From IMG/VR virus record IMGVR_UViG_3300033145_001890, positions 1 to 41,683 of that record: DNA of 41,683 bases. One strand, given 5' to 3'. The notes beneath the pieces were generated by a model. It ran no database searches and was not told the DNA's origin. It saw nothing but the letters and a program-made list of their open reading frames with translations. The DNA is from a virus. The position numbers and the translations under genes were made by a program. This document shows positions 5,601 to 35,753 of the stretch, piece by piece; position 1 is the first letter of the stretch, and every line of letters begins with the position of its first letter.

Positions 5601-7547
5601 TTAGAAACAATTAACTCCCACTGGAACTTTTAATCTCCTGCAGGCATAAGTACAATCTCCACAAACAATATTTGAATCAACACACGTTGTTCCGCAAACT
5701 GATGCTCCTCTAACAGTTGAAGTCCCACAAATACTTGGCCCACAAACTAAATTTCCATAAAGATTTCCAGTAACATATCCATTTCCTGCAACATAAAGTG
5801 CACAAGCTGATGATCCATTAATTCCAATTTGTGTTGCTGAAAGACATCCTGTAACTGCAGCATTTCCCCCAATTGTTGCATCATCTCCAACAAATAAATC
5901 ATCCACTGCACAAACATCTCCTCCACAAACAAGAGTAGATCCGTAAACTAATGGACCACACACATGAGTTGCTGCTTCAATACAACACCCATGAATCTCT
6001 TTCCAAGCCCCAGGAGAACTTGCTATCCCCATACAATTCAATCCAGTCCCATCAATAATATTTTCACTCATACAAAGTCCGCAAGAATTACAAGGAGCAA
6101 TATATGGATTTGCTGCATCAACCCAAAAATCAGATCCTCCTCCTCCGCCTTCTCCCCAAGCAAGCTGTCCGGATCCATCAGTACATAAAACCTGGCCAGT
6201 TGTTCCATCAGTATTTGGAAAACAATAAGCTCCAAGTGTCAATTCTCCTGTAATAATAAGATCCCCTGCAATATAATTGTAAATACTTGATGCATTAACA
6301 TTCAATAAACACATTTGAACCACTCCTCCCGGAACTGATAAATGGCCATTCAAATAAGTCCAATCCCCTGAACATCCACAAACCCCACTTCCAATCAATC
6401 CCTGCCCAAGAATACAAGCCAAGACATCATCAAAATAAGAACATCCTCCAATATAGGTTGCAATATTTTGATTTGAATATTCATCAGGATACTGATCATA
6501 ATTTTGTAAATCATTAGCCCTATTTTCTAATTCTGCCAATGCTCTGCTTACAGTTCTTTCAACTTGTGAGTATCCTTTGTTCGCAACAGTCAAGGTCAAA
6601 AATTCATTTCCTGCCCTAAATCCCCTTTCAACATTCACAATCCTAACTTCTTCATTATCCAAATCTTTTGCTTGAGAATTTAATGTGATCACATCTCCAG
6701 CAACAACATTCAAACCTGGATTCATAACATCAAACTCATAGATCTTCACAGGATCCTTCCATTTAGCAACAAGCTTATTTGCAAGAGTATTTGCTTCTGC
6801 AACTGACACAACTGTTGGATCATCATAGATTTTTCTAATTGTTCCATAATTTGATTTTGAAGTCGCATCCTGGCCTGATGATCCTGGATTACTTTCAATT
6901 CTTGTTTCTCCTTCACTCTGGCCATAAACTCTCACATCATTTGCAATTGGATAAGCATGCCTGACAGTCAAGTCTTGCATCTGGATTCCATCATTCAAAG
7001 TGGCCACACTTGTTGAAGATCCTTTATGATCTAAAACATCAATCTCTGAATTTACATAATCAATTCCAACATCCTGTCCAGTTCTTTTAACTAAACTTGA
7101 TAAAGCATTCCAAAGACTTGAAGTTGGTTGAACTCTGAAATCAAGACTTTCTCCAGCTTCATTTGTTCCCATAGTAAAATAATTACTCTCACCAACAATT
7201 GCAGAAGCTATTGTTGCACTCGCAGTTGAACTCCATGGAGATCCCGCATAATCTCCATTCTCTTTTCCCATCCAAACTTCATAACCATAAAGATCTGCTG
7301 AAATTCCTCCAGCATCAAGAAAACTTAAAGAATTAATAAATCCATGAAATTCCAGAGTTCCATTCCTGTAAATAAAAACTTCTGATCCAATTTCAAACAA
7401 TCCTCTTTTTGTTTCTCCTGTCCCAGTAATTCTCAATTGTCCTTCATTGATATCACCCATCTTTTCAGAATAAGAAAATCCAACATCTGCAATTACAGTT
7501 CCTTTCTCTCCAGAAGTATTTTGAACATTAATTATAAAAGAACTCAT
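5601..7547 (-). CDS. tail hub (Tal/gp27-like) fused to a Cys-rich fibre region
   Basis: 648 aa. The first 340 or so residues have the plan of phage tail hub proteins: a beta-rich start (FIINVQNTSGEKGTVIADVGFSY), then GRKxY-like beta domains, and a section typical of the last hub domain (VVAGDVITLNSQ, VRIVNVERGF). A short helical linker (VERTVSRALAELENRANDLQ, about 335-355) leads to a C-terminal half with many xCG/VCG units (LVCGGDVCAVDDLFVG, GNLVCGPSICGTSTVRGASV), like a repetitive beta-structured fibre with regular Cys. A GEGGGGGSDFW linker separates two parts. The start overlaps the nucleotidyltransferase-like gene by ATGA. It likely forms the central tip and first receptor contact. Confidence 0.75.
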   Translation of the reverse strand: MSSFIINVQNTSGEKGTVIADVGFSYSEKMGDINEGQLRITGTGETKRGLFEIGSEVFIYRNGTLEFHGFINSLSFLDAGGISADLYGYEVWMGKENGDYAGSPWSSTASATIASAIVGESNYFTMGTNEAGESLDFRVQPTSSLWNALSSLVKRTGQDVGIDYVNSEIDVLDHKGSSTSVATLNDGIQMQDLTVRHAYPIANDVRVYGQSEGETRIESNPGSSGQDATSKSNYGTIRKIYDDPTVVSVAEANTLANKLVAKWKDPVKIYEFDVMNPGLNVVAGDVITLNSQAKDLDNEEVRIVNVERGFRAGNEFLTLTVANKGYSQVERTVSRALAELENRANDLQNYDQYPDEYSNQNIATYIGGCSYFDDVLACILGQGLIGSGVCGCSGDWTYLNGHLSVPGGVVQMCLLNVNASSIYNYIAGDLIITGELTLGAYCFPNTDGTTGQVLCTDGSGQLAWGEGGGGGSDFWVDAANPYIAPCNSCGLCMSENIIDGTGLNCMGIASSPGAWKEIHGCCIEAATHVCGPLVYGSTLVCGGDVCAVDDLFVGDDATIGGNAAVTGCLSATQIGINGSSACALYVAGNGYVTGNLYGNLVCGPSICGTSTVRGASVCGTTCVDSNIVCGDCTYACRRLKVPVGVNCF

Positions 7548-7906
7548 TTTCTATATTTTTTTGTAAATTTAATTTTGATTTTTCCATCCAAAAATTTTCT
7601 CAACTCTTGGTTAATTGTTTCAATTGTGTAATCTCCTCCCTTCACATAAAGATCAGGTTTTATCTTTTTAATCAATTCTATGGGAGTATCTTCCTCGAAT
7701 AAATATGCCTCCTTGACAAAAATTAAATTTTGTATTGTTTTCAATCTCTCACTTTCAGAAATCAAAGATTTTTTTTTAATTCTCTCCATTGACTTATCAG
7801 AATTAACTCCAACAATCAATCTTCCCATCTTACTTGCTTCTTCCAAATATTCTAAATGCCATGAACTAAAAGGATCAAAGCATCCATTTGTAAAGACTTT
7901 CATCAT
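7544..7906 (-). CDS. cytidylyltransferase-like (RfaE/TagD-type) protein with altered catalytic motif
   Basis: 120 aa. The start MKVFTNGCFDPFSSWHLEYL and the later ERLKTIQNL...LFEEDTPIELIKKIKPDLYVKGGDY match the cytidylyltransferase-like family that activates heptose-phosphate, glycerol-3-phosphate or similar substrates. The family's H-x-G-H nucleotide-binding motif is S-S-W-H here: the first His and the Gly are gone. The usual C-terminal S-T-T segment is also missing, the protein ending in IKFTKKYRK. It is therefore either a modified enzyme or a non-catalytic derivative. ATGA overlaps at both ends couple it to the distal-tail and hub genes, an odd place for a sugar gene; with the GT9 gene it suggests virion or surface glycosylation. 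Confidence 0.75.
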   Translation of the reverse strand: MMKVFTNGCFDPFSSWHLEYLEEASKMGRLIVGVNSDKSMERIKKKSLISESERLKTIQNLIFVKEAYLFEEDTPIELIKKIKPDLYVKGGDYTIETINQELRKFLDGKIKIKFTKKYRK

Positions 7907-12491: not shown

Positions 12492-13169
12492 TTAGCTAGA
12501 CAATTCTACGTTCTTTATAATCCCTGTTCTAAAGATCTCTTCACCGCCAGCTTTCTTTTCACCAAGAATTTGTTCAACTCTCCAGTAGTTATTATCAGAA
12601 TCTTTCATAATATCTCCCACATCCGGAGTAACAGTCCCATTTCCTGTAATTGAATCAGGATACTCATGAAAGAAAAAGGCCTTAGAATTACCAGGAACTG
12701 CCAATCCCATCTCATGAATTTGACGATCTTTCTTTGTAATATCCTGAACCATTGAATAAATTGTATACTCCGTTCCAGAGACATCAGTTACATCTCCCAT
12801 GCTCGCAACAGTTTCTGCTTGCCTAATCAAAGTATACTCCTGACCATGTTCTGTAATAATTGCTTGAACATCTGCCCTCATCTTATCATATTGAGTTGAT
12901 CCTGCAGCAACGGTTCCAGTTCTTTGTTGATAATAATTTGACACAATTGGTTGATCATCCCATAACGCATTTAGAAATGTAATCACTGATGCTGATGAAT
13001 TATGCACAACAGTATATTCAGAAGTCAATGCCAAAACTAATCCAGAAACAGAAATCAAAAAACCATCAGCGCTTGTTGTTCCAGTATTTGCCAAAGTTAA
13101 AGTTCTGTTTATTGCTCCAGAAGATCCTGAGCAATCTGCCCCAGTATAAATTTCTGTCTTTACTTCCAT
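12492..13169 (-). CDS. head closure protein candidate with N-terminal extra domain
   Basis: 225 aa. The C-terminal 120 residues (RADVQAIITEHGQEYTLIRQ..., VGDIMKDSDNNYWRVEQILG) look like a phage stopper/head-closure barrel. The first 100 residues (ITFLNALWDDQPIV preceded by GLVLALTSEYTVVHNSSASV) form a separate beta domain, probably displayed outward. Its start overlaps the end of the giant surface-protein gene by ten bases, tying that gene into the late transcript. Confidence 0.6.
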   Translation of the reverse strand: MEVKTEIYTGADCSGSSGAINRTLTLANTGTTSADGFLISVSGLVLALTSEYTVVHNSSASVITFLNALWDDQPIVSNYYQQRTGTVAAGSTQYDKMRADVQAIITEHGQEYTLIRQAETVASMGDVTDVSGTEYTIYSMVQDITKKDRQIHEMGLAVPGNSKAFFFHEYPDSITGNGTVTPDVGDIMKDSDNNYWRVEQILGEKKAGGEEIFRTGIIKNVELSS

Positions 13170-16100
13170 CTTATATCAAGTCTCCTTTTTCTTTTAAATA
13201 TTGTTGCAGGAATAAAAATTAAGAAAATCAATCTAAGAACTTCACATCCTGAGCTCCACCAAAACACTGTATTACTTATCGGAGCATCCCTCGTCGTTAA
13301 ATTCAATTGAGCATTACAAGTAAAGGATCCTGAACTTCCTATCCAACTAAGATTTCCAGTTCCTAAATTACAAGGAGTTGAAAGTGTACACGTATCTTCC
13401 ATATCAACTTCCCAATTATTTCCTGATCCTGGACAAGAACAAGTATCTCCAGCTCCTAAACTTATTGAAAAAGTTACACTTTCAGAATCATTTAAATTTC
13501 CTAAAGTATCATTACAATAAAAATCAACTATATGCGAACCATTTGTCATTGAAGAATTTGTATAAACCCAATCATCTGTATTTCCTCCAGATGAAAAAGA
13601 AAGATTATACTCATAAATATTATCAGAAACTGCACCAAGCGTATATAATTTAGCAGTTCCTTCATCTATATCAACCCCACGTTGTTGATCATCTTGTGGA
13701 GTATATTCACTGCCATCAAAAACGCATGAACTAACATTCCAAGCATCACTACAATTATGTTGTCTCAAATCTCCTTGGAAAGGAACTGAGATAAATTCAG
13801 TACCATCATTAATAAAATACATATTATATGTATCATAAGCTATATCTAAATAATCACTGTCAATTACACATGAGCTAACATTCCAAGGATCTGAACAATC
13901 ATATTGATAAATATCATAACTATCTCCTGAAATATAAAACCTTGAACCATCAGGTTTAAAATGGATTTTAGCTGTCCAACCTGGATCATCACTTAAAGAA
14001 ATATTTTTTCCATCATAACTACACGAACTAATATTCCAAGCATCTGTACAATCAAACTGATGAAGAAATTTATCATACCAATCAGTTAAATAAAAAGAGG
14101 TCCCATCAATTTTCATATCAAGTCCTTGTAATACACCAGGATCATCAATAATACCTATTGAAATATTCTTGCTAGTATCATAAACACATGAACTAAGATT
14201 CCATGGAGTAGAACAAGAAGACTCAGCAATAATATCCAGCGTAGTATCTGAAGTGTATAATAAAAGACCATCACTGCTAAAATGAAAATTAGAAACACCA
14301 CTTCCTACTGATAAAGATTCTCCAGTATAAGCAGTATCAGATATGTTTCCTATTTCTGTTCCTAAGATATTTTCCATACTAATATTATTTCCATCATCCA
14401 AACTCATCCAACAAGAATCAACTTCACCATCATCAACAGCAGTAATATTAAAAAGAATTTCAGAAACATTATAAGTTATATTCTCTGGTGAATTAATTGT
14501 TACATTTGGAGGATTAATAATTACCGAAGTCGTAATAAATTGAAAAATATCTGTCATGTTTTCTGCATCTGAACTATTGGCCCAAACATACCATTTAATT
14601 GTTGCTCCAACAGAAGAAGTTATTTGCTTAGTCACATTAGAATGATTTGTTGATCCTGAAAATTCTACTGCTGAATCATTCAAAAATTCTTGCTGACTTT
14701 CAATATCAATCCAAGTCCCAGTCCAATTAATTGTGTCAAATAAACTTGAAGAATTATAATCCATAAGTCTTGCAGAGATTCTCAAGTCCCTATCTGCATC
14801 TGTTTGCCAAGCTGCTAATATCATCGATGTTGTAACAACTAATGAAAAGTTTCCTGATTGATTAACAACAAAATCTTCTCCAAAAGATTCCCAACCTTCA
14901 CCATCCCAAACCTCTAACCATAAAGTTGCATTATCATTTGCATTTGCAATTGATCCAGAAGTATTATAATAAGAAACTCCAACAGTCACTGTAATATTAT
15001 CAATTTGTGAATAAACACTTCCTGCAAAAACATTCAAATAATCCACTGCTGTTTTATTTACATCTTCACTAGTTCCTCCTCCTTCATCTACAACCCAATA
15101 CATTGAATGATCTCTTCCTGATGATGGATTCAATTCACCTGGTTCCATCCAAGCTCCATAAGTATAACTATCATATTGCCAAGTTCCTCCAAGATCTTCA
15201 TATCCCAAATAATTTTGTGTAGATGAACCACCACACATAGCAACCAAATCATAAACAGTATCTTTTGTAACTGTTGCTCCTGCTCCAAATGTAAAATTAA
15301 ACCATCCTGCCTGATCAACATTAGTTTCAGTAGTATTTCCTATCAGATTATTACTTTGATCATAAATTGCAACCTTACAATCATTTGCAGAATTAACCGT
15401 TCTAAACCATACAGATGCTTTTGTAGCATCTCCACTCATTTGAGCTGTAATACTTTGTCCAGTCGGATAATTATTTACATAATAACCATTTGTTGTTCCA
15501 GTAGAAGTTTTTCCAGAAATATTTTCTCCGCCAGCTCCTCCTTCTCCTGAAAAAGTTTGAGTTCCAGCTTCTTTATCTCCTGAATAATTTGTTTGAGTCC
15601 AGTTTGCTCCATTATACCATCCAAAAATATATGAACTTAAATCTGAACTTGTCTCCCAAAAAACACTAAACAAAATATTCTCTCCAGCAACCGTACTATT
15701 TGTTTGATTTAAAGACCAATCTAAATAAGAAGCCGAAGCATTAACAGTATAACTCTGATCTATTGAAACATTATAATTTGCTGCAGATCCATTCCCCCAA
15801 GAATGCCATCTATAAGGATAAACTCCTGATGAACTAAACGTATATGTTGCATTATATATATCAGCAGTCAAGTTTGTTGCAGTAATATTATTTCCATCAA
15901 TCTCTAATAAAACAGTTCCATTTGTCGACGTGACTGTTACATTAAAATGCCCATCACCTGAATCAATCAAACTTGCATTATCATCCCAATAATTTGAGAA
16001 TTGAGGATATTCATCATCTGCATCTCCATAAAGAATTGCATTTGATTCTGTATCAGTTACATCTCCACCATTAGTTGCATTAATAAATAAATCTTTATAC

Positions 16101-19100
16101 CCATTTCCTAAAGATGGAACAGTCACATTTACCTGCCAACCAACTCCTTCAATCCATCCAAATTCATCTCCTCCTCCAGAACCAGTAACATTAATTCTAT
16201 CTAAAGCAATATCACTCAAATATCCTGTGCTCGTTCTTGTATAATTAAATCTTAAATTTCCTGATCCTGTCAAAGAGGATAAATCAACACTTGTAAGATT
16301 CCAATAATCATTATTTATATCAGACATACTCCATAAACTCACCCATGATCCTGTTGAATTTTCTTCTAAATAAAGAGTATCAATTTCAGTACCATAAGCA
16401 TCAAAATAAAATTCAATCTTCTCATTACTTGAAGAATCATAATCAATTGTTTCATTTAAATAAACTAAAGCCACATCTCCTGCATCATAACAATTTCCAG
16501 ATGAAGTTTCTACAAAAATAAAATAAGTTCCTGCTCCTCCAACCCCTCCATTTTGTGGTCCTGTACCTGATGATCCAGTTGCAGTTCCTCTATCTCCCCA
16601 AGCATCTGCATCCGGACAATTAACTCCTGCATGAACTGCCCAATGCCCAAAGTCTGTTTCAAAATCATCATAATATTCAAAAGAATCTCCTCCAGTACCT
16701 TCAACAACATTGGCCTGCACATCATCAATAGTTATATTATTCAAAGTTACTCCTGTCGTAAGATTTGCTCCATTCTCTAAAAATAAAAATGTCAAAGTAA
16801 TATTATCTAATGAACTTACTGATTCTGGATCTCCTTCTGTGGGATCAAGAATATCTAATTCAAGAGAAACAATTGATAATGTTCTATTTGTATCCCAATC
16901 AGATTTGCTTTGATTATCAACAACTAAACAATTCCATTTATAATCATCATAAACTGTAAAATCATGTGTGAAAGTTGATGAATTTGATGTTCCTGTCCAA
17001 TCTATCGTCGAGGAATTAATTTCATCATCAGTTGAGTTCCAAACATACCACGTCACATTTGCTAACTGAGGTGTATCTGTCCCATTACATTCAAATTCTA
17101 TTTCTGCAACATCACTTGAATAAGCATTTGCTGGATAACTTAAAATTGAAACTGGTGGAGGATTAGGAGAATATTTATTACTTAATGGAAGAGCATCTAC
17201 TGCAGATGATTGAGCATCAACAAAAGATGAATCACAAAATCCATCTTGATCTGCATCAGTACAATCTTCTGAAAATCCAGTTCCAGAATAATCATTATAA
17301 TAATTTCCTCCAATATTAACTCCCTCTCCATAAACTCTATCTCCTGCTTGTTCAGCAATATTCCAAGCATTTCCTCCTGAAATAAAATAACCTAAATCAT
17401 CATTAGAATGATTAAAAAGATTATTATAAACCAAATTATTTGATCCAGGAGATGCCAAATTAATATAACTACTATACTGATATTTTGGACCTTGAAAAGT
17501 ATTATTATACATTGTCCATGAAGAAGGATAAAGAGCATAAATAAGATCTCTACTATCTGGATCTCCTTCAAAATAACTATTTTTAATTACAGTTCCTCCA
17601 TCATCAACTCTATAACCTTGAATGTTATATGAATCTGTGGAATCTACTCTAACATTATCAAGAGTCAATCCCGATCCAGGATACCATAAAAGCATTGCTT
17701 TATTCAAATTATTCATTGTAGAATTTGCAAACATAAGATTATCTGTGTCTCCTGTAACAACCAATCCCATCCCAAAAGTATTTGCTGATTGATCCCACGT
17801 CATATTATTCAAAACTGAATTATCTGCATTACACAAAATTATTGCACTCATATTATTATCCCAATGTTCAAGAGTCACCTGACTATTATAAAACATAACT
17901 GGAAGACCTTCTGCTCCCAACACATTTGTAAATGAACTATCACAATCTCCTGAATTTGCTGCTTGATAATCAACATCTGTAAAGGCCCCACTACTCCATG
18001 TCAGATTCACATTTGTAAAATCTCCATAAGAAGCATCAATAATTAAAACATCTCCATCCACTCCATCTTCTCCAGTAAGAACAGTATCTTCAATCACCAC
18101 ATCAAAAGAATCTCTAAACTCAATTACTCCATAACTAGATCCCCCATCTCCAGTAATATCAGAATTTTTTATCACTAAGTTATCAGCATATCTTGCCCAA
18201 AGTCCCCTATCAAGACTTGCCGCAGTAATATTATCAAAAGTAACATTAGTTGCATATATAACATACATAGAATAAGAATCCCAATCTGTTAAAATACAAT
18301 TCTTCGCAGTAAAATTAACAAATTCTTGTGAAGCACGATTTACTCTAATTGCAGTATCTGCTGCACCATCTCCATCAATTGTTTCGCCTGCACAATCAAG
18401 AGTCACATTATATCCTGTGACATCCATACAATTTCCTGTTCCAGAATTTGAAATACTCCCAGTCATTGTGTAAACTGAATTGTTTGCAGACAAAACTGTA
18501 CAAGCAGAAATATCTGGATCTAAAGTCACATTATAATCTCCAAAAATAGAAAAATTAAATTGATTCTCAAGATAAGTTCCAGCATCAACTAAGATCGGAG
18601 ATTTGAAAACCAACTTTACTCCAAGAGTATCTCCTTTAGGAAATTTATCAAGTTTTGTTTTCAATTTCCAATCATTAAACTCATATTTTGTCACATTATA
18701 TTCACAATCTTTTTCTTCCTCTTCTGTTGCTAACTTTTTATTACTCAACCCTGAATCAATCAAAGGAACATTTTTTGAAAAATCAATTTGATCATAACAT
18801 TCTGAATCAACAATCTTCTCCTGACGAGTATTTGCTAACTTAGATGTATAAACTTCCATCTCCATAATTGCATGCTTAAAATTAGACATCATAGAATCCT
18901 TTTCAATAAAGTCATTAGTTAGATCATGATTTGTTATTGCAAGAACAACTTCACACAATTTCCAATCAGCATCAGGATCAGTCCAATCACATTTAATATC
19001 CATCGGAGCTTCAATTGTAATATCTTCGATTCTTATTGTTTTTATATTTGCATCACTATCAAAGATTTCTCCTTGAACTCCAAACCATATCGGATCTAAA

Positions 19101-19591
19101 TATTCACGATTTTCATAATCAACTGACCACTTAATATCTTCTGTTGGATCTTTTTTGTATCCGACAATTCTAAACTGATAATCTCTCCCTTCTCTCAAAA
19201 CATAAGAATATTTCACTCCTTTATTATTAGGAGCTCCACACCAAGTCCCTGTGCAAGTTTTATCTAAAGGAATATCTTTCCAATAATTTCCCCAAGATCT
19301 TTGAAACTTCCAAGATTCAACTCCTGGTTCAAATTCAAAGGGCGTATCTCTTCCCCAAGGATCATAACCAATCGGATAAATAAAAATATCTTCATTTGCA
19401 GTCAAATTAATATAAGCATAACAAGGATCTGCTTCTGTTCCCGCACAAATTTGATCTCCAGAATATCCTGTGATATCAATCACGCCTAATGTAAAAAGAT
19501 AAAACAAAAAGAGGCCAGCAAAAGTTCCAACTGAGATGCCTTTAGCTATTCCCCACTTATTAACTGTTTGCTCATAAACTTTTTTTGCCAT
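13160..19591 (-). CDS. giant membrane-anchored surface protein (beta-helix, MAM-like, propeller-like)
   Basis: 2143 aa, about 15% of the genome. Residues about 17-38 are a membrane helix (ISVGTFAGLFLFYLFTLGVI). A beta-rich domain runs to about 350, then a NosD-like right-handed beta-helix to about 770 (NVTLDCAGETIDGDG and many NxTxxN rungs), ending near a DADQDGFCD calcium-type motif. Ig-like domains follow, a MAM-like jelly roll near 975-1130 (DDFETDFGHW), more Ig-like domains, and propeller-like repeats at about 1800-1995 with a recurring C-x-D-A-W-N-x-S-S-C unit. The end has a Cys cluster, a helix (VLRLIFLIFIPATIF) and KRKRR. More than forty N-x-S/T sequons point to heavy glycosylation outside the cell. 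Two membrane ends suggest display on the host envelope. Role unknown: adhesion, exclusion of other viruses, or a virion spike. Confidence 0.85.
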   Translation of the reverse strand: MAKKVYEQTVNKWGIAKGISVGTFAGLFLFYLFTLGVIDITGYSGDQICAGTEADPCYAYINLTANEDIFIYPIGYDPWGRDTPFEFEPGVESWKFQRSWGNYWKDIPLDKTCTGTWCGAPNNKGVKYSYVLREGRDYQFRIVGYKKDPTEDIKWSVDYENREYLDPIWFGVQGEIFDSDANIKTIRIEDITIEAPMDIKCDWTDPDADWKLCEVVLAITNHDLTNDFIEKDSMMSNFKHAIMEMEVYTSKLANTRQEKIVDSECYDQIDFSKNVPLIDSGLSNKKLATEEEEKDCEYNVTKYEFNDWKLKTKLDKFPKGDTLGVKLVFKSPILVDAGTYLENQFNFSIFGDYNVTLDPDISACTVLSANNSVYTMTGSISNSGTGNCMDVTGYNVTLDCAGETIDGDGAADTAIRVNRASQEFVNFTAKNCILTDWDSYSMYVIYATNVTFDNITAASLDRGLWARYADNLVIKNSDITGDGGSSYGVIEFRDSFDVVIEDTVLTGEDGVDGDVLIIDASYGDFTNVNLTWSSGAFTDVDYQAANSGDCDSSFTNVLGAEGLPVMFYNSQVTLEHWDNNMSAIILCNADNSVLNNMTWDQSANTFGMGLVVTGDTDNLMFANSTMNNLNKAMLLWYPGSGLTLDNVRVDSTDSYNIQGYRVDDGGTVIKNSYFEGDPDSRDLIYALYPSSWTMYNNTFQGPKYQYSSYINLASPGSNNLVYNNLFNHSNDDLGYFISGGNAWNIAEQAGDRVYGEGVNIGGNYYNDYSGTGFSEDCTDADQDGFCDSSFVDAQSSAVDALPLSNKYSPNPPPVSILSYPANAYSSDVAEIEFECNGTDTPQLANVTWYVWNSTDDEINSSTIDWTGTSNSSTFTHDFTVYDDYKWNCLVVDNQSKSDWDTNRTLSIVSLELDILDPTEGDPESVSSLDNITLTFLFLENGANLTTGVTLNNITIDDVQANVVEGTGGDSFEYYDDFETDFGHWAVHAGVNCPDADAWGDRGTATGSSGTGPQNGGVGGAGTYFIFVETSSGNCYDAGDVALVYLNETIDYDSSSNEKIEFYFDAYGTEIDTLYLEENSTGSWVSLWSMSDINNDYWNLTSVDLSSLTGSGNLRFNYTRTSTGYLSDIALDRINVTGSGGGDEFGWIEGVGWQVNVTVPSLGNGYKDLFINATNGGDVTDTESNAILYGDADDEYPQFSNYWDDNASLIDSGDGHFNVTVTSTNGTVLLEIDGNNITATNLTADIYNATYTFSSSGVYPYRWHSWGNGSAANYNVSIDQSYTVNASASYLDWSLNQTNSTVAGENILFSVFWETSSDLSSYIFGWYNGANWTQTNYSGDKEAGTQTFSGEGGAGGENISGKTSTGTTNGYYVNNYPTGQSITAQMSGDATKASVWFRTVNSANDCKVAIYDQSNNLIGNTTETNVDQAGWFNFTFGAGATVTKDTVYDLVAMCGGSSTQNYLGYEDLGGTWQYDSYTYGAWMEPGELNPSSGRDHSMYWVVDEGGGTSEDVNKTAVDYLNVFAGSVYSQIDNITVTVGVSYYNTSGSIANANDNATLWLEVWDGEGWESFGEDFVVNQSGNFSLVVTTSMILAAWQTDADRDLRISARLMDYNSSSLFDTINWTGTWIDIESQQEFLNDSAVEFSGSTNHSNVTKQITSSVGATIKWYVWANSSDAENMTDIFQFITTSVIINPPNVTINSPENITYNVSEILFNITAVDDGEVDSCWMSLDDGNNISMENILGTEIGNISDTAYTGESLSVGSGVSNFHFSSDGLLLYTSDTTLDIIAESSCSTPWNLSSCVYDTSKNISIGIIDDPGVLQGLDMKIDGTSFYLTDWYDKFLHQFDCTDAWNISSCSYDGKNISLSDDPGWTAKIHFKPDGSRFYISGDSYDIYQYDCSDPWNVSSCVIDSDYLDIAYDTYNMYFINDGTEFISVPFQGDLRQHNCSDAWNVSSCVFDGSEYTPQDDQQRGVDIDEGTAKLYTLGAVSDNIYEYNLSFSSGGNTDDWVYTNSSMTNGSHIVDFYCNDTLGNLNDSESVTFSISLGAGDTCSCPGSGNNWEVDMEDTCTLSTPCNLGTGNLSWIGSSGSFTCNAQLNLTTRDAPISNTVFWWSSGCEVLRLIFLIFIPATIFKRKRRLDIRWK

Positions 19592-19600
19592 TTTCCCATT

Positions 19601-21313
19601 TTATGCTGCCCCGCAATCTTTGCCTCCACTAGGCCAATACATGCAAGAGTCTGTCGCATTTGAATACCAGTTGCATGCTGAATCGAGGCAGGTAATATTT
19701 GTTGTATCAATTTTAAAATGATCAATTGTTACTCCTGCAAAAGTTGGACTGCTTGCAGTTGTTAAAGCTTGACCAGTATTAAAAGCCAATTGAGTATCTC
19801 CAATTCCATCAGCAGTCACACTCAAACCATCTGCATCTTGTGATAAAGCAGTATTGCCTGCAACACTAAAAGTTGTTCCTGCCAAACTAATTCCATTTCC
19901 TGCAGAATAAGTTGTATCATCATCTGCCTCACAAGCCAGATCATTTCCAGATAAATAATAATGATTACCTGACGCACATGCAGTTGTAAATTCAATCTTG
20001 CCTTCACTAATCTCATCAGCATCAATCACAGTATCAAGATCATTTGAAGTATCCCAATAACTTGCAAAACTAACTGCCGCACTCACCAAACTTGTCACAT
20101 GCCCAAATTGATCTAAAACAACATCTTGAATAAAAGTATTTCCTGAATTTTCATCACTTGCTTGAGAACTTGTGTCTGAATGATTAATCTCTGTTCCAAC
20201 AATACTTATTCCTGATCCATTTGTATAAGAAGTTCCTGCATCAATTTCACAAGTAAATCCTGTTCCATTATATTTGCTCACTTCTCCAACCCCACAAGTT
20301 GCTGCTGAAACATTTAATGTAACTTCTCCAGTTGCTCCTCCACCAATTAATCCTGTCCCTGCAAGCACTCCAGTAATATCTCCTCCTCCTGCTGGGGTTG
20401 CACAATAAATCGTATCTCCAGTAATATTATAAATAAAATCTCCAGATGAACATTCTGAACTCACAACATAAGTATCAGTATTCACAATTGTACAAAGATC
20501 AGATGTCGCCCCTGTAACATTAGAACAATGAGGTAATGTTTCATTTGCCAAAGGAAGCTCTGACTGATAAATTATATTTGAACAATCTCCATCCCCGGAA
20601 CAATTCCCAATATAAGAAGGTGTTGAACATGAAAGACTATCTCCAATTTGATAAACATAATCTCCTGCCGAACATGCACTTGGAAAATCATCAATAGTTG
20701 TCCAATCAGATCTATTAACAAAATAAGTAATTGATTCTGCAGTTGTTGAATAATCAGGTTTATCAGCACTCCAATTTCCAACATAAGAAACAAGATCTGC
20801 AATTGCAACATAAGAAGTTAATTGAGTTGTCACCCAACTTTGAGTTGCATAAGCAAGTGAAATCACCCAATCATAAATCTGATCTGCCGTGCTCAAATGA
20901 GTTGTATCTCCATTACTTGGAGTTGCTGTTGGAATCCCAGTAAAGTTATCCCAAGCCGTAAAAATAGGATCTGTTTCTGATGTTAAATAACTTTGATCCA
21001 AAACCCATTGAGTATTATTCCATCTAGCATCTCCTGTCACAATCAATTTTGTTTCATTAAAAATAAAATAATTAGATCCATTCAAATAAATATAAACTCC
21101 TCCTGCATAATAATCTGATCCTGCAATTAATTCTGTAAGAGTATAACAATTTGCTTCTCCAAGATCACAATAATAAGCTGCACTAATATTTGTCGCATTA
21201 ATAATTTTATAAGTATTTCTTAAATTAATATCTCCTTGAGGTGTCCAATCAGCTGCAAGAACTAATCCCATTAATCCTATAAATACTATTAATCCTATCA
21301 ATAGCTTTTTCAT
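19601..21313 (-). CDS. secreted fibre-like glycoprotein
   Basis: 570 aa. A clear signal peptide (KKLLIGLIVFIGLMGLVLAA, cut near residue 20) starts the protein. The body has fibre-type beta repeats: DPIFTAWDNFTGIPTATPSN, GAGTGLIGGGATGEVTLNV-like and GNGISLAGTTFSVAGNTALS, with several N-x-S/T sequons and paired Cys; the last part is SCMYWPSGGKDCGAA. Tail fibres rarely carry signal peptides, so this one is exported and perhaps assembles on the cell surface with the giant protein that starts nine bases later. It directly follows the connector gene, so both are in the late operon. Confidence 0.8.
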   Translation of the reverse strand: MKKLLIGLIVFIGLMGLVLAADWTPQGDINLRNTYKIINATNISAAYYCDLGEANCYTLTELIAGSDYYAGGVYIYLNGSNYFIFNETKLIVTGDARWNNTQWVLDQSYLTSETDPIFTAWDNFTGIPTATPSNGDTTHLSTADQIYDWVISLAYATQSWVTTQLTSYVAIADLVSYVGNWSADKPDYSTTAESITYFVNRSDWTTIDDFPSACSAGDYVYQIGDSLSCSTPSYIGNCSGDGDCSNIIYQSELPLANETLPHCSNVTGATSDLCTIVNTDTYVVSSECSSGDFIYNITGDTIYCATPAGGGDITGVLAGTGLIGGGATGEVTLNVSAATCGVGEVSKYNGTGFTCEIDAGTSYTNGSGISIVGTEINHSDTSSQASDENSGNTFIQDVVLDQFGHVTSLVSAAVSFASYWDTSNDLDTVIDADEISEGKIEFTTACASGNHYYLSGNDLACEADDDTTYSAGNGISLAGTTFSVAGNTALSQDADGLSVTADGIGDTQLAFNTGQALTTASSPTFAGVTIDHFKIDTTNITCLDSACNWYSNATDSCMYWPSGGKDCGAA

Positions 21314-22135
21314 TTAAATCACCCGAGGTCGAATCTTTAATGTTTGCTCTAAAAAAGTTCTCTCTTTAATTAATTGATTTGCAGCTTCTCTCCACTGAGT
21401 ATAAGGTTCACCTTTCTGGATATGTAATTCTCCAAGATCATAACCAACAGTATCTGAATAAGATTGTCCAATAATCCTTGCGACTAATGCAATCCCTGCA
21501 ACAACATTCATATATTTTGTAAAGTCTGAATTGATTTGTAATTTAGTAATTGTACTTCCAGATTCATGAGCTAAGATCAATTGATCCAAAACAATTGCTC
21601 CTGCACCTGGATCTCCATTTATTTGAGCAACTTCTCTCATTCCATCCATCCCATAAATTTCAACCCAATCCTCATCTGCAAAATCTGTAATTGAAGCAAC
21701 TGCAACAGAAACATCAGTCCCTGCAACTTCATCTCCACTCGAAGTTGTTGAAGTTGTTGAATGCTCAACAGTCCCATATAAATATTTTACAACAACCTTA
21801 TTTCTTCCTGCAATAAATTTTGAAGTCAAAGCATCTTCTCCTAAGAAAATATAACCTGATTCTTTCTTGATCTCTAAAGTATCCGGATCATAAGTTGTGC
21901 CATCAATCTTTAAGGCCCTAACACTCAACACCGGATTCATGTCCAGGAGCAATCTATTTGTGCCATCACCATCAAGAAAATCCATCTTTTCAGTTGGAGC
22001 AAAAGCAGTATTGAATTTATTTGGAATTTGATTCTCAACTTCTGCAATTGTTGCATTCACATCATCAGCATTGATTTCTGCCGCTAAGATTCCAACCGTT
22101 CTCCTCACTGTTGTTTCTGAAATATAAGTTCCCAT
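21314..22135 (-). CDS. head-tail connector (gp6/gp15-like) with insertion domain
   Basis: 273 aa. The N-terminal (SETTVRRTVGILAAEINADD) and C-terminal helices (IALVARIIGQSYSDTVGYDL, REAANQLIKERTFLEQTLKI) form an alpha-helical connector scaffold of the HK97 gp6/SPP1 gp15 type. The beta-rich middle (about residues 55-190, including VLSVRALKIDGTTYD and EVAGTDVSVAVASITDF) is an insertion that looks surface-exposed. Location after the capsid genes supports a ring below the portal. Its stop abuts the secreted fibre start. Confidence 0.65.
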   Translation of the reverse strand: MGTYISETTVRRTVGILAAEINADDVNATIAEVENQIPNKFNTAFAPTEKMDFLDGDGTNRLLLDMNPVLSVRALKIDGTTYDPDTLEIKKESGYIFLGEDALTSKFIAGRNKVVVKYLYGTVEHSTTSTTSSGDEVAGTDVSVAVASITDFADEDWVEIYGMDGMREVAQINGDPGAGAIVLDQLILAHESGSTITKLQINSDFTKYMNVVAGIALVARIIGQSYSDTVGYDLGELHIQKGEPYTQWREAANQLIKERTFLEQTLKIRPRVI

Positions 22136-33380: not shown

Positions 33381-33640
33381 TCTTGACCTGAACAGCACTC
33401 CACTGCATCCTCCTTTCTTTGATGTTCATAATTACAGATCGGACAAACATAAACAACCAAATTCAATCCCTTCTTTTTTATCAATCTTTTTGCAAGAGCA
33501 AACATCACTTCTCTATTTTCTTTTGGAAGATCCTCAAACTTAACTTTACATTTCTTTTGAGTTTCCCACTTCTGTTGCTTAGCAATCTCTTCATACTGAT
33601 TATGCATCCATTCTGCAAGTACAATATAACAACTACTCAT
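33377..33640 (-). CDS. zinc-ribbon protein
   Basis: 87 aa. Helical N-terminal (EWMHNQYEEIAKQQKWETQK) and a C-terminal zinc ribbon CPICNYEHQRKEDAVECC. Start overlaps the upstream stop (ATGA) with AGGGG as SD. Function unknown; it may be part of the mini zinc-protein set of this virus. Confidence 0.7.
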   Translation of the reverse strand: MSSCYIVLAEWMHNQYEEIAKQQKWETQKKCKVKFEDLPKENREVMFALAKRLIKKKGLNLVVYVCPICNYEHQRKEDAVECCSGQE

Positions 33641-33915
33641 GTTTTCAATCCCCTCTCAAGTAATTTCGTTTGAATTAATAATTGTCTTGTTCCTGCATGA
33701 AAATTAAGAACTCTTGCTTCTTCTGATTTAGTTTTTGATTCAAGAAATTTTCTCTCTTCATCCTTAAAAGGATAATGATGCAATCCCCATGTTCCAAGTC
33801 CAAAAATTATCAATACAACTCCAACAGCAATAAGCCATCCATTGATTGCCTCTATCAAAAGATAAATTCCTGCAATAATCATTATTACATTTGCGAGGTT
33901 TCTTGGTTCTGCCAT
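33637..33915 (-). CDS. two-helix membrane protein
   Basis: 92 aa. Residues about 7-23 (LANVIMIIAGIYLLIEA) and 27-44 (WLIAVGVVLIIFGLGTWG) are two membrane helices separated by a short turn, followed by a charged cytoplasmic tail of about 45 residues. No SD is obvious; it is first after a T-rich tract and so may start a transcript. Function unknown. Confidence 0.7.
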   Translation of the reverse strand: MAEPRNLANVIMIIAGIYLLIEAINGWLIAVGVVLIIFGLGTWGLHHYPFKDEERKFLESKTKSEEARVLNFHAGTRQLLIQTKLLERGLKT

Positions 33916-34933: not shown

Positions 34934-35392
34934 TTAAAAATCTCTAAAATCTTTACAAAGGATCTTCCCTCTCTTCTCTCCCTTCTTTGCAATTAAGATC
35001 TTACTAAAAACTTTATTGTCCAGGAGCCATTGACACATCTCTTTTTCTTTTTTATCTAAAACTCCAGTCATCTTAGATTCAATTCCAATAATTTCATATC
35101 CTGAGATCCCTGTATCTTCCAACATCACTAATCTAAAAGCAATAAAATCTGGAAATCCTGCACCCAACATCATTGGCCTTCCAGGACCTAAAAACTTATT
35201 CTTAACCTTAACTAACTTGCCTACTGTAAATGGAAGCTCATGCACATCTTCATCATTATGAAACTCAACAGAATTACTCCACTTATCAACAAACCAACCA
35301 TCCTTCTCAAATTCTTCACGTACTTTTAATTCAAATCTCTGGCCTGCTGCCCTTGTTCTTTTTCCTTCCGCAACTTTTTTTTGATCTTTCAT
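34934..35392 (-). CDS. PD-(D/E)xK nuclease (Holliday-junction or VRR-NUC-like)
   Basis: 152 aa. The core elements are in order: Glu 21 in AAGQRFELKVREEFEKDGWF, Asp 82 in GAGFPDFIAF, and E-S-K at 105-107 (IIGIESKMTG), then KEKEMCQWLL and KILIAKKG. This is the restriction-enzyme-like fold of archaeal Hjc-type resolvases and VRR-NUC proteins. It probably resolves replication or packaging intermediates. The stop of the 69-aa gene overlaps its start. Confidence 0.8.
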   Translation of the reverse strand: MKDQKKVAEGKRTRAAGQRFELKVREEFEKDGWFVDKWSNSVEFHNDEDVHELPFTVGKLVKVKNKFLGPGRPMMLGAGFPDFIAFRLVMLEDTGISGYEIIGIESKMTGVLDKKEKEMCQWLLDNKVFSKILIAKKGEKRGKILCKDFRDF

Positions 35393-35598: not shown

Positions 35599-35607
35599 TT
35601 TTTATAT

Positions 35608-35680
35608 GAAGGTGACGGGAATCGAACACCGCGATCTCTGGCTTATGAGGCCAGCGCCTTAACCACTAGGCCACACCTTC
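35608..35680 (-). tRNA. tRNA with CAT anticodon (Met or Ile2), odd T-arm
   Basis: The cloverleaf is drawn directly: acceptor GAAGGTG/CACCTTC (7 pairs) with discriminator A at 35607; D-stem GCCT/AGGC; anticodon stem CTGGC/GCCAG with loop CTCATAA. The T-arm has one extra base: removal of one T in CGGTGTTCGATTCCCG restores a perfect arm. CCA is not encoded. CAT could read AUG, or AUA if the C is modified to agmatidine as in archaeal tRNA-Ile2. Confidence 0.85.
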
Positions 35681-35682
35681 AA

Positions 35683-35753
35683 TGGACCCACTGGGAATTG
35701 AACCCAGGATTCCTCCTTGCAAAGGAGATATGATTCCACTTCATCATGGGCCC
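35683..35753 (-). tRNA. tRNA-Ala (TGC)
   Basis: Acceptor GGGCCCA/TGGGTCC including the G3-U70 pair that marks tRNA-Ala, D-stem ATGA/TCAT, anticodon stem TCTCC/GGAGG with loop TTTGCAA, T-arm CTGGG/CCCAG with TTCAATT, discriminator A at 35683. No CCA. Only two bases separate it from the next tRNA. Confidence 0.93.

Follow-up and report, generated by a model that had tools for sequence, protein, structure and literature searches.

Exported viral proteins that act at the cell surface are, as a general idea, already known. The nearest described case to the gene pair analyzed here, P570 and P2143 of IMG/VR virus record IMGVR_UViG_3300033145_001890 (the window, i.e., the whole analyzed stretch of 41,683 bases), comes from tailed viruses of sheathed archaea, which encode exported sheath-like (SH-like) proteins that are widespread in the group and for which a function has been proposed (PMC11576556). 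These proteins comprise 159 to 288 amino acids, mostly lack cap domains, are amyloid-like, with a two-sheet core that would pair with the host sheath protein, and are sometimes 75 to 94% identical to host sheath proteins (PMC11576556). Phage T5/BF23 Llp is a small, exported, receptor-blocking lipoprotein with a known receptor (PMC4728585). Furthermore, ConA-like, lectin-type genes of Patescibacteriota phages have been suggested to promote host adhesion (PMC12911398).

The window pair resembles the SH-like proteins in that it belongs to tailed, very probably archaeal viruses, has a signal peptide that would direct it to the cell exterior, and occurs group-wide. It differs in size, fold type and origin: instead of short proteins, we found a 570-amino-acid fibre-like protein and a 2143-amino-acid anchored modular protein with many domains, both rich in N-glycosylation sequons (N-X-S/T, X not P), and the anchor is virus restricted. 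Like Llp, the pair would be an exported viral product shown by the infected cell, and it differs among closely related viruses. However, Llp is a small lipoprotein, whereas P570 lacks a lipobox Cys where its signal peptide is cut and P2143 is a giant protein that spans the membrane. In position, Llp-type genes lie beside the receptor-binding gene; the window pair lies beside neck genes, and related anchors also lie directly before the tail-tip gene. As proposed for the Patescibacteriota phages, Laminin_G_3/ConA-type domains on virus genes may serve adhesion, although here they occur in relatives and the window P2143 has MAM, NosD and propeller parts instead; the lectins reported there are single auxiliary genes of bacterial-lineage phages, whereas here a two-gene cassette has a dedicated anchor, an N-glycosylation signature and fixed slots. 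With trimeric phage tail fibres (Celeribacter phage P12053L) P570 shares fibre-type modules, but these fibres are cytoplasmic virion proteins with no export signal, whereas P570 has a signal peptide and a sequon excess (a form lacking the signal peptide was found only in L047/L048 and L086). Eib proteins, Lom and PblA/PblB are phage-encoded adhesins of the host surface, bacterial and mostly linked to lysogenic conversion; these phage products likewise act on the cell surface, but without a fibre-anchor pair or N-glycosylation. The literature found does not describe the pairing of fibre and anchor in one cassette, the restriction of the anchor family to viruses, the movement between slots or the exchange of exported for soluble versions. 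Still, in view of the precedents above, the first-pass annotation of the window was too strong in stating that no system of this kind was described.

Architecture and sequons of P570 and P2143

The two genes belong to a minus-strand series in tailed-virus order: large terminase, portal (fused to a Mu F-like part), protease-like gene, SU10-type major capsid protein (MCP), adaptor, Hc1, Neck1 and tail genes. As the first-pass annotation had noted, the pair takes almost a fifth of the genome (19.5% of the window) and lies between connector and head-closure genes (Table 1). The P570 gene abuts the adaptor gene and the P2143 gene overlaps the Hc1 gene by 10 bases, an arrangement that makes their expression as part of the late operon most likely.

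Hydropathy and direct reading were the basis for assigning signal peptides and membrane helices. The N-terminus of P570, MKKLLIGLIVFIGLMGLVLA followed by ADWTPQG, is that of a typical signal peptide with the cleavage region VLA/ADWTPQG. The conserved mature N-terminus is (A)D(W/F)TPQGDINLR. Fibre-type repeat modules follow: residues 349-457 match a phage tail fibre protein, e.g., that of Celeribacter phage P12053L (tblastn, E 2e-5), and the identity of P570 modules to phage tail fibre proteins is 34-47% over 75-109 residues. P570 had no matches in Pfam, PHROG or NCBIfam. PDB by sequence gave only weak anti-CRISPR matches (E 0.1-0.3), which were taken as chance.

P2143 begins with a basic tail and a hydrophobic segment, and a second membrane segment near its end is followed by KRKRRLDIRWK; both ends are therefore predicted to be cytoplasmic. 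A C-terminal membrane ending was also found in L016 and L004, but several other partners lack one, whereas the N-terminal helix is family-wide and thus the anchor. This helix is part of a domain that we named A1, which consists of a conserved basic cytoplasmic tail, the membrane helix and a beta-sandwich with a conserved Cys. Mean pairwise identity was 0.66 in the cytoplasmic tail, 0.53-0.68 in the folded domain and 0.40 in the membrane helix. AlphaFold2 modelled the A1 region as a helix pair and a beta-sandwich (predicted local distance difference test [pLDDT] mostly 68-93), and also a beta-propeller, around which confidence was low outside residues 1755-1996. The propeller model matched solved beta-propellers (best Foldseek E 9e-9, probability 1.0, but with low TM-scores), while structure prediction, suggested earlier as a check, gave no confident match of the A1 fold in PDB or BFVD. 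A search of P2143 against PDB by sequence found nothing. The earlier assignments of a signal peptide, two membrane ends and NosD-, MAM- and propeller-like parts were thus all recovered.

The number of sequons, given before as more than forty, had been understated, although the excess itself is real. P2143 contains 81 sequons versus 33 expected in shuffles (z 9.3), the reversed motif occurring 34 times, and P570 contains 18 versus 7.9 (z 4.2). This is about 2.4-fold the expectation for the pair, while all other window proteins pooled have 61 versus 56. In the relatives, anchors and fibres had pooled ratios of 2.26 and 1.98, compared with 0.60 for portal, 0.90 for terminase, 1.01 for protease, 1.05 for adaptor and 1.02 for tube proteins; a few small groups deviate in either direction, and MCP and Hc1 have 1.43 and 1.46. 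In the exported family as a whole, N-X-S/T was found 1208 times versus 520 expected. N-P-S/T was not enriched (18 versus 15), N-X-C was found 15 times versus 42 expected, and D/E at position -2 was not preferred (0.112 versus 0.121). Proline and the extended Campylobacter-type sequon are thus avoided, as would be selected by an archaeal-type oligosaccharyl transferase, and a proline-sensitive excess without D/E at -2 is the pattern of N-glycosylated, exported archaeal surface proteins. We consider this strong evidence that fibre and anchor are exported and glycosylated; for an archaeal host, the evidence is moderate. Chance is excluded for the pair by its surplus of sequons and by the reappearance of these two genes in relatives.

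Signal-peptide fibres with modules in common with P570 were also seen in other phage lineages (L007, L009, L010 and L012). That of L009 has no sequon excess (z 0.6), which suggests that exported fibres also exist in viruses whose hosts lack such N-glycosylation.

Recurrence, exchange and mobility of the cassette

Relatives were collected in overlapping sets based on the portal (44 loci), the fibre (14), the anchor (26) and the fibre N-terminus (30); their open reading frames (ORFs) are mechanical calls. A hydrophobic N-terminal segment was present in 27 of 29 distinct fibre N-termini; in these 27 related sequences, a signal-peptide fibre takes the neck slot. All 13 such fibres with readable downstream genes were accompanied by a partner with an N-terminal membrane segment, directly following except in L130 (one gene between). 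In the two remaining lineages, L047/L048 and L086, the fibre begins directly with MSDFTPQGDINLR, no upstream reading frame holds a missed signal peptide, and neither lineage has a membrane partner. It is suggestive that the signal peptide goes with the anchored partner (exact probability ~0.01, with just two lineages lacking the signal peptide).

In L048, the fibre without signal peptide is followed by a soluble Laminin_G_3 protein. L003, which has the exported pair, is 96.1% identical to L048 over 1439 bases through the fibre ATG and unrelated beyond it, and its similarity to L086 also ends at the fibre start codon. The switch between the exported pair and the soluble fibre-lectin pair thus falls precisely on the start codon. 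That the break lies at this codon in two independent comparisons speaks against an assembly chimera, although the L003 sequence comes from a single contig.

The partner ectodomains exchange modules, namely MAM, NosD, Laminin_G_3 (in L002, L013, L069 and L080), CBM96, FGE-like and Gly-rich parts, which is in line with the earlier proposal of adhesion-type proteins, since sugar-binding or adhesion-type domains recur among them. A split form was seen in L080:4633-9830 and L088:10001-17816, where an A1-only anchor (371 or 322 amino acids) precedes a separate secreted giant (1361 or 2293 amino acids, up to 140 sequons). In L083:10001-14104, an A1-anchored protein carries CBM96 and then a terminal FGE-sulfatase/C-type-lectin-like domain. 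Diversity-generating retroelements usually target this type of end fold; at L083, no reverse transcriptase was noticed among the listed genes, and the vicinity yielded no template repeat. A second family of signal-peptide fibres with the mature N-terminus AYSTYGAPSEFGN occupies the portal-protease slot in L011:1405-3684, L051:1858-2925 and L017:7007-8962 and is also present in L007:2149-4344. A plasmid search with a relative's fibre gave none.

The A1 domain was found at 26 viral loci, and its hidden Markov model (HMM) family has about 33 different members. It was absent from annotated phages even at E 1, and in 84,980 bacterial and archaeal genomes we found a single fragment, by an exact short-pattern scan of the whole collection that divergent members may escape and that was not an HMM search centred on DPANN genomes. 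This match, at a contig end of a PVC-group metagenome-assembled genome and with a frame break, is regarded as either a stray piece or an error of binning. With one fragment in so many cellular genomes, the A1 anchor does not appear to be a borrowed host gene.

In L015 and L034, adaptor and Hc1 genes are adjacent, i.e., the neck slot is empty, and the A1 protein lies between portal and protease (L015) or after Hc1 (L034). Many relatives encode, directly before the tail-tip gene, an A1 protein or an exported giant anchored in another way; in some of them (L064, G006, L004, L076 and G002) this comes on top of the neck pair. Neck and tail members are interleaved in the anchor tree, whose well-supported branches force at least three tail-label and at least six neck-label changes. 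Furthermore, capsid proteins of L013 and the window have no similarity detectable by blastp, yet their anchors are 54% identical. We conclude from the mixed slots, the interleaved tree and the anchor shared with L013 that the cassette moves between positions and virus lineages. The pair does sit in the head module, as first described, but rather than a single insertion it is a recurrent fibre-plus-anchor cassette of the virus group with several late-operon slots. Homing-type endonuclease genes were seen in neighbouring slots (L073, NUMOD3/HNH).

Glycan genes occur in the same slots: the tail region of the window has a cytidylyltransferase gene, Anp1-type and GT2-methyltransferase genes lie beside the adaptor or the anchor (L030, L075), and the relatives G002, G003 and G004 carry whole glycan operons. 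By guilt by association, this favours activity at the host surface. Large glycan operons of cassette-carrying relatives (L092:390-8518, L096:556-8424 and L102:8186-17365) encode glycosyltransferases, a sulfotransferase, GDP-mannose dehydratase, UDP-galactopyranose mutase and a DegT aminotransferase. In L096:5761-7788 (G003 contig), GDP-mannose 4,6-dehydratase appears in two stretches around a LAGLIDADG part within one frame of 675 amino acids, which makes an intein within this viral sugar-nucleotide gene probable.

Coordinates and other genes of the window

Table 1. Positions of the gene pair, its parts and neighbouring genes
Feature	Position	Strand	Size or support
Window	41,683 bases		IMG/VR virus record IMGVR_UViG_3300033145_001890
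P570 ORF	19601-21313	-	570 amino acids
P570 signal peptide, residues 1-20	21254-21313	-	Direct reading; hydrophobic N-terminus in 27/29 homologues
P570 conserved mature N-terminus ADWTPQGDINLRNTY	21179-21253	-	Alignment of versions with and without signal peptide
P570 fibre module GISLAGTTFSVAGNTALSQDADGL, residues 419-496	19826-20059	-	58-69% identity in L002, L007, L008, L009, L010
P2143 ORF	13160-19591	-	2143 amino acids
P2143 A1 anchor domain, residues 1-170	19082-19591	-	26 viral loci, HMM family, AlphaFold2, tail conservation
P2143 N-terminal membrane segment, residues ~14-36	19484-19552	-	Hydropathy; in all complete A1 members except one mis-called start
P2143 NosD-type beta-helix	17282-17884	-	PF05048, 26.4 bits, above curated cut-off
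P2143 MAM domain, residues 976-1136	16184-16666	-	PF00629, E 7.1e-9
P2143 beta-propeller, residues ~1755-1996	13604-14329	-	AlphaFold2 pLDDT mostly 50-91; Foldseek
P2143 C-terminal Cys module CSCPGSGNNWEVDMEDTC, residues 2025-2121	13229-13519	-	46-65% identity in L016, L004, L083/L090
P2143 C-terminal membrane segment, residues ~2118-2132	13196-13240	-	Direct reading; KRKRRLDIRWK after
Head-tail adaptor (upstream neighbour)	21314-22135	-	phrog_442, E 6e-8
Head closure Hc1 (downstream neighbour)	12492-13169	-	phrog_161, E 2e-5
Cytidylyltransferase-like gene, tail slot	7544-7906	-	PF01467, E 9.5e-17; phrog_7878

The slot of the cytidylyltransferase-like gene is occupied in relatives by an A1 anchor gene. 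Two more small proteins with N-terminal membrane segments are encoded at 2-484 and 1829-2440; the former, truncated at the end of the window, contains 4 sequons versus 1.3 expected. A holin-like candidate (33637-33915) is 92 amino acids long and combines two hydrophobic segments with a charged tail. Adjacent tRNA-Met and tRNA-Ala genes, both without an encoded CCA end, lie at 35606-35753. A resolvase link to archaea for 34934-35392 was dropped, since a PDB search gave no match.

Proposed role and alternatives

We favour, with a probability of about 45%, a late glycosylated fibre and an anchored modular adhesin on the infected cell that serve receptor blocking or surface conversion; display on the cell, ligand binding and receptor blocking are the parts that we infer. 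P570 would leave the cytoplasm by the Sec route as a fibre-like, probably trimeric protein. P2143 would be inserted into the membrane via its N-terminal helix, here also via the C-terminal one, and display a modular ectodomain of 2000 amino acids that may bind glycans or proteins. The host would N-glycosylate both. The fibre might be freed to, or kept at, the surface while the anchored partner shows its binding modules, and both could bind surface ligands of the infected archaeal cell. The most likely outcome would be surface conversion, in which an occupied or masked receptor prevents the infected cell and debris from adsorbing rival or progeny virions, with T5 Llp as the functional model; changed adhesion to other cells may follow.

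Several points weigh against this proposal. Close relatives have, in the same slot, a fibre without signal peptide but with the same mature N-terminus, next to a soluble lectin-like partner, which fits a virion fibre and suggests a docking partner common to both forms. The cytoplasmic tail of the anchor (66% mean identity) is conserved to the same degree as its folded domain; this suggests a cytoplasmic partner, which simple display does not need. In addition, early expression would suit superinfection exclusion more obviously than a place in the late operon does. The first-pass annotation had placed both proteins outside the cell and not in the virion. Export, anchoring of one of them and the glycosylation signature agree with the first part, but the cytoplasmic fibre form and the conserved tail keep a virion-linked or docking role in play.

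Such a role could be reached by an outside route: the exported, glycosylated fibre, perhaps with the anchor ectodomain, would be picked up by leaving virions via the mature N-terminus (A/S)DFTPQGDINLR and/or the anchor cytoplasmic tail. We give this some chance, though a minor one. In addition to the conserved tail, it accommodates the homologues of L047/L048 and L086, the end of the 96% nucleotide identity between L003 and L048 exactly at the fibre start codon, and the resemblance of the fibre module to phage tail fibre proteins. The constant neighbourhood of neck genes also fits, as does the A1 anchor position directly before the tail-tip gene, the usual place of receptor-binding genes; however, the unrelated slots in L015 (portal-protease) and L034 (after Hc1) imply no neck docking. 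Moreover, other virion and tail proteins of the window have no sequon excess, and we know of no tailed virus that acquires fibres outside the cell.

An egress device seems unlikely; here, fibre and anchored giant would attach to the S-layer or envelope of the host and destabilize it at a late stage of infection. The late operon position and the exported anchored giant in nearly all relatives examined are consistent with it, and the sheath-like proteins of sheathed-archaea viruses offer a precedent (PMC11576556). Yet no enzymatic or amyloid-type part was found, and the binding modules are more variable than one would expect of a lattice-disrupting part. No endolysin was recognized in the window, but the holin-like candidate mentioned above indicates that other genes may serve lysis.

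There is little likelihood that the pair is an ectosymbiont adhesin that causes an infected host to adhere to, or detach from, its partner cell. Lectin-like modules, and the like proposal for Patescibacteriota phage lectin genes (PMC12911398), point in this direction; a DPANN host, however, is a supposition, and the near absence of the anchor family from cellular genomes speaks against a borrowed host adhesin. It is very improbable that the proteins are normal cytoplasmic fibres of the virion whose N-termini happen to be hydrophobic, a reading suggested by the match of the fibre motif to phage tail fibres, since the signal peptide is kept in 27 of 29 lineages and a proline-sensitive sequon excess requires oligosaccharyl transferase passage.

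A broader idea is doubtful: in a large group of archaeal tailed viruses, the virus-specific anchor with its conserved cytoplasmic tail would link the assembly machinery or virions inside to fast-exchanging glycosylated adhesins outside, and the same fibre-lectin function would be swapped between exported and cytoplasmic (virion-borne) forms by one cassette exchange at the start codon. If true, this would be an envelope-glycoprotein-like system in nonenveloped tailed viruses.

Should the surface-conversion reading hold, as much as a fifth of the genome of tailed viruses of uncultivated archaea would encode proteins for the exterior of the infected cell, with an anchor family that is nearly absent from cellular genomes. 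The A1 domain and the DFTPQG fibre N-terminus are concrete, searchable markers of the virus group, and the exported and soluble cassettes in 96%-identical viruses are unusually clean natural variants for learning the function of the slot. The system would also lend itself to studying the control of re-adsorption, egress or cell contact by archaeal viruses.

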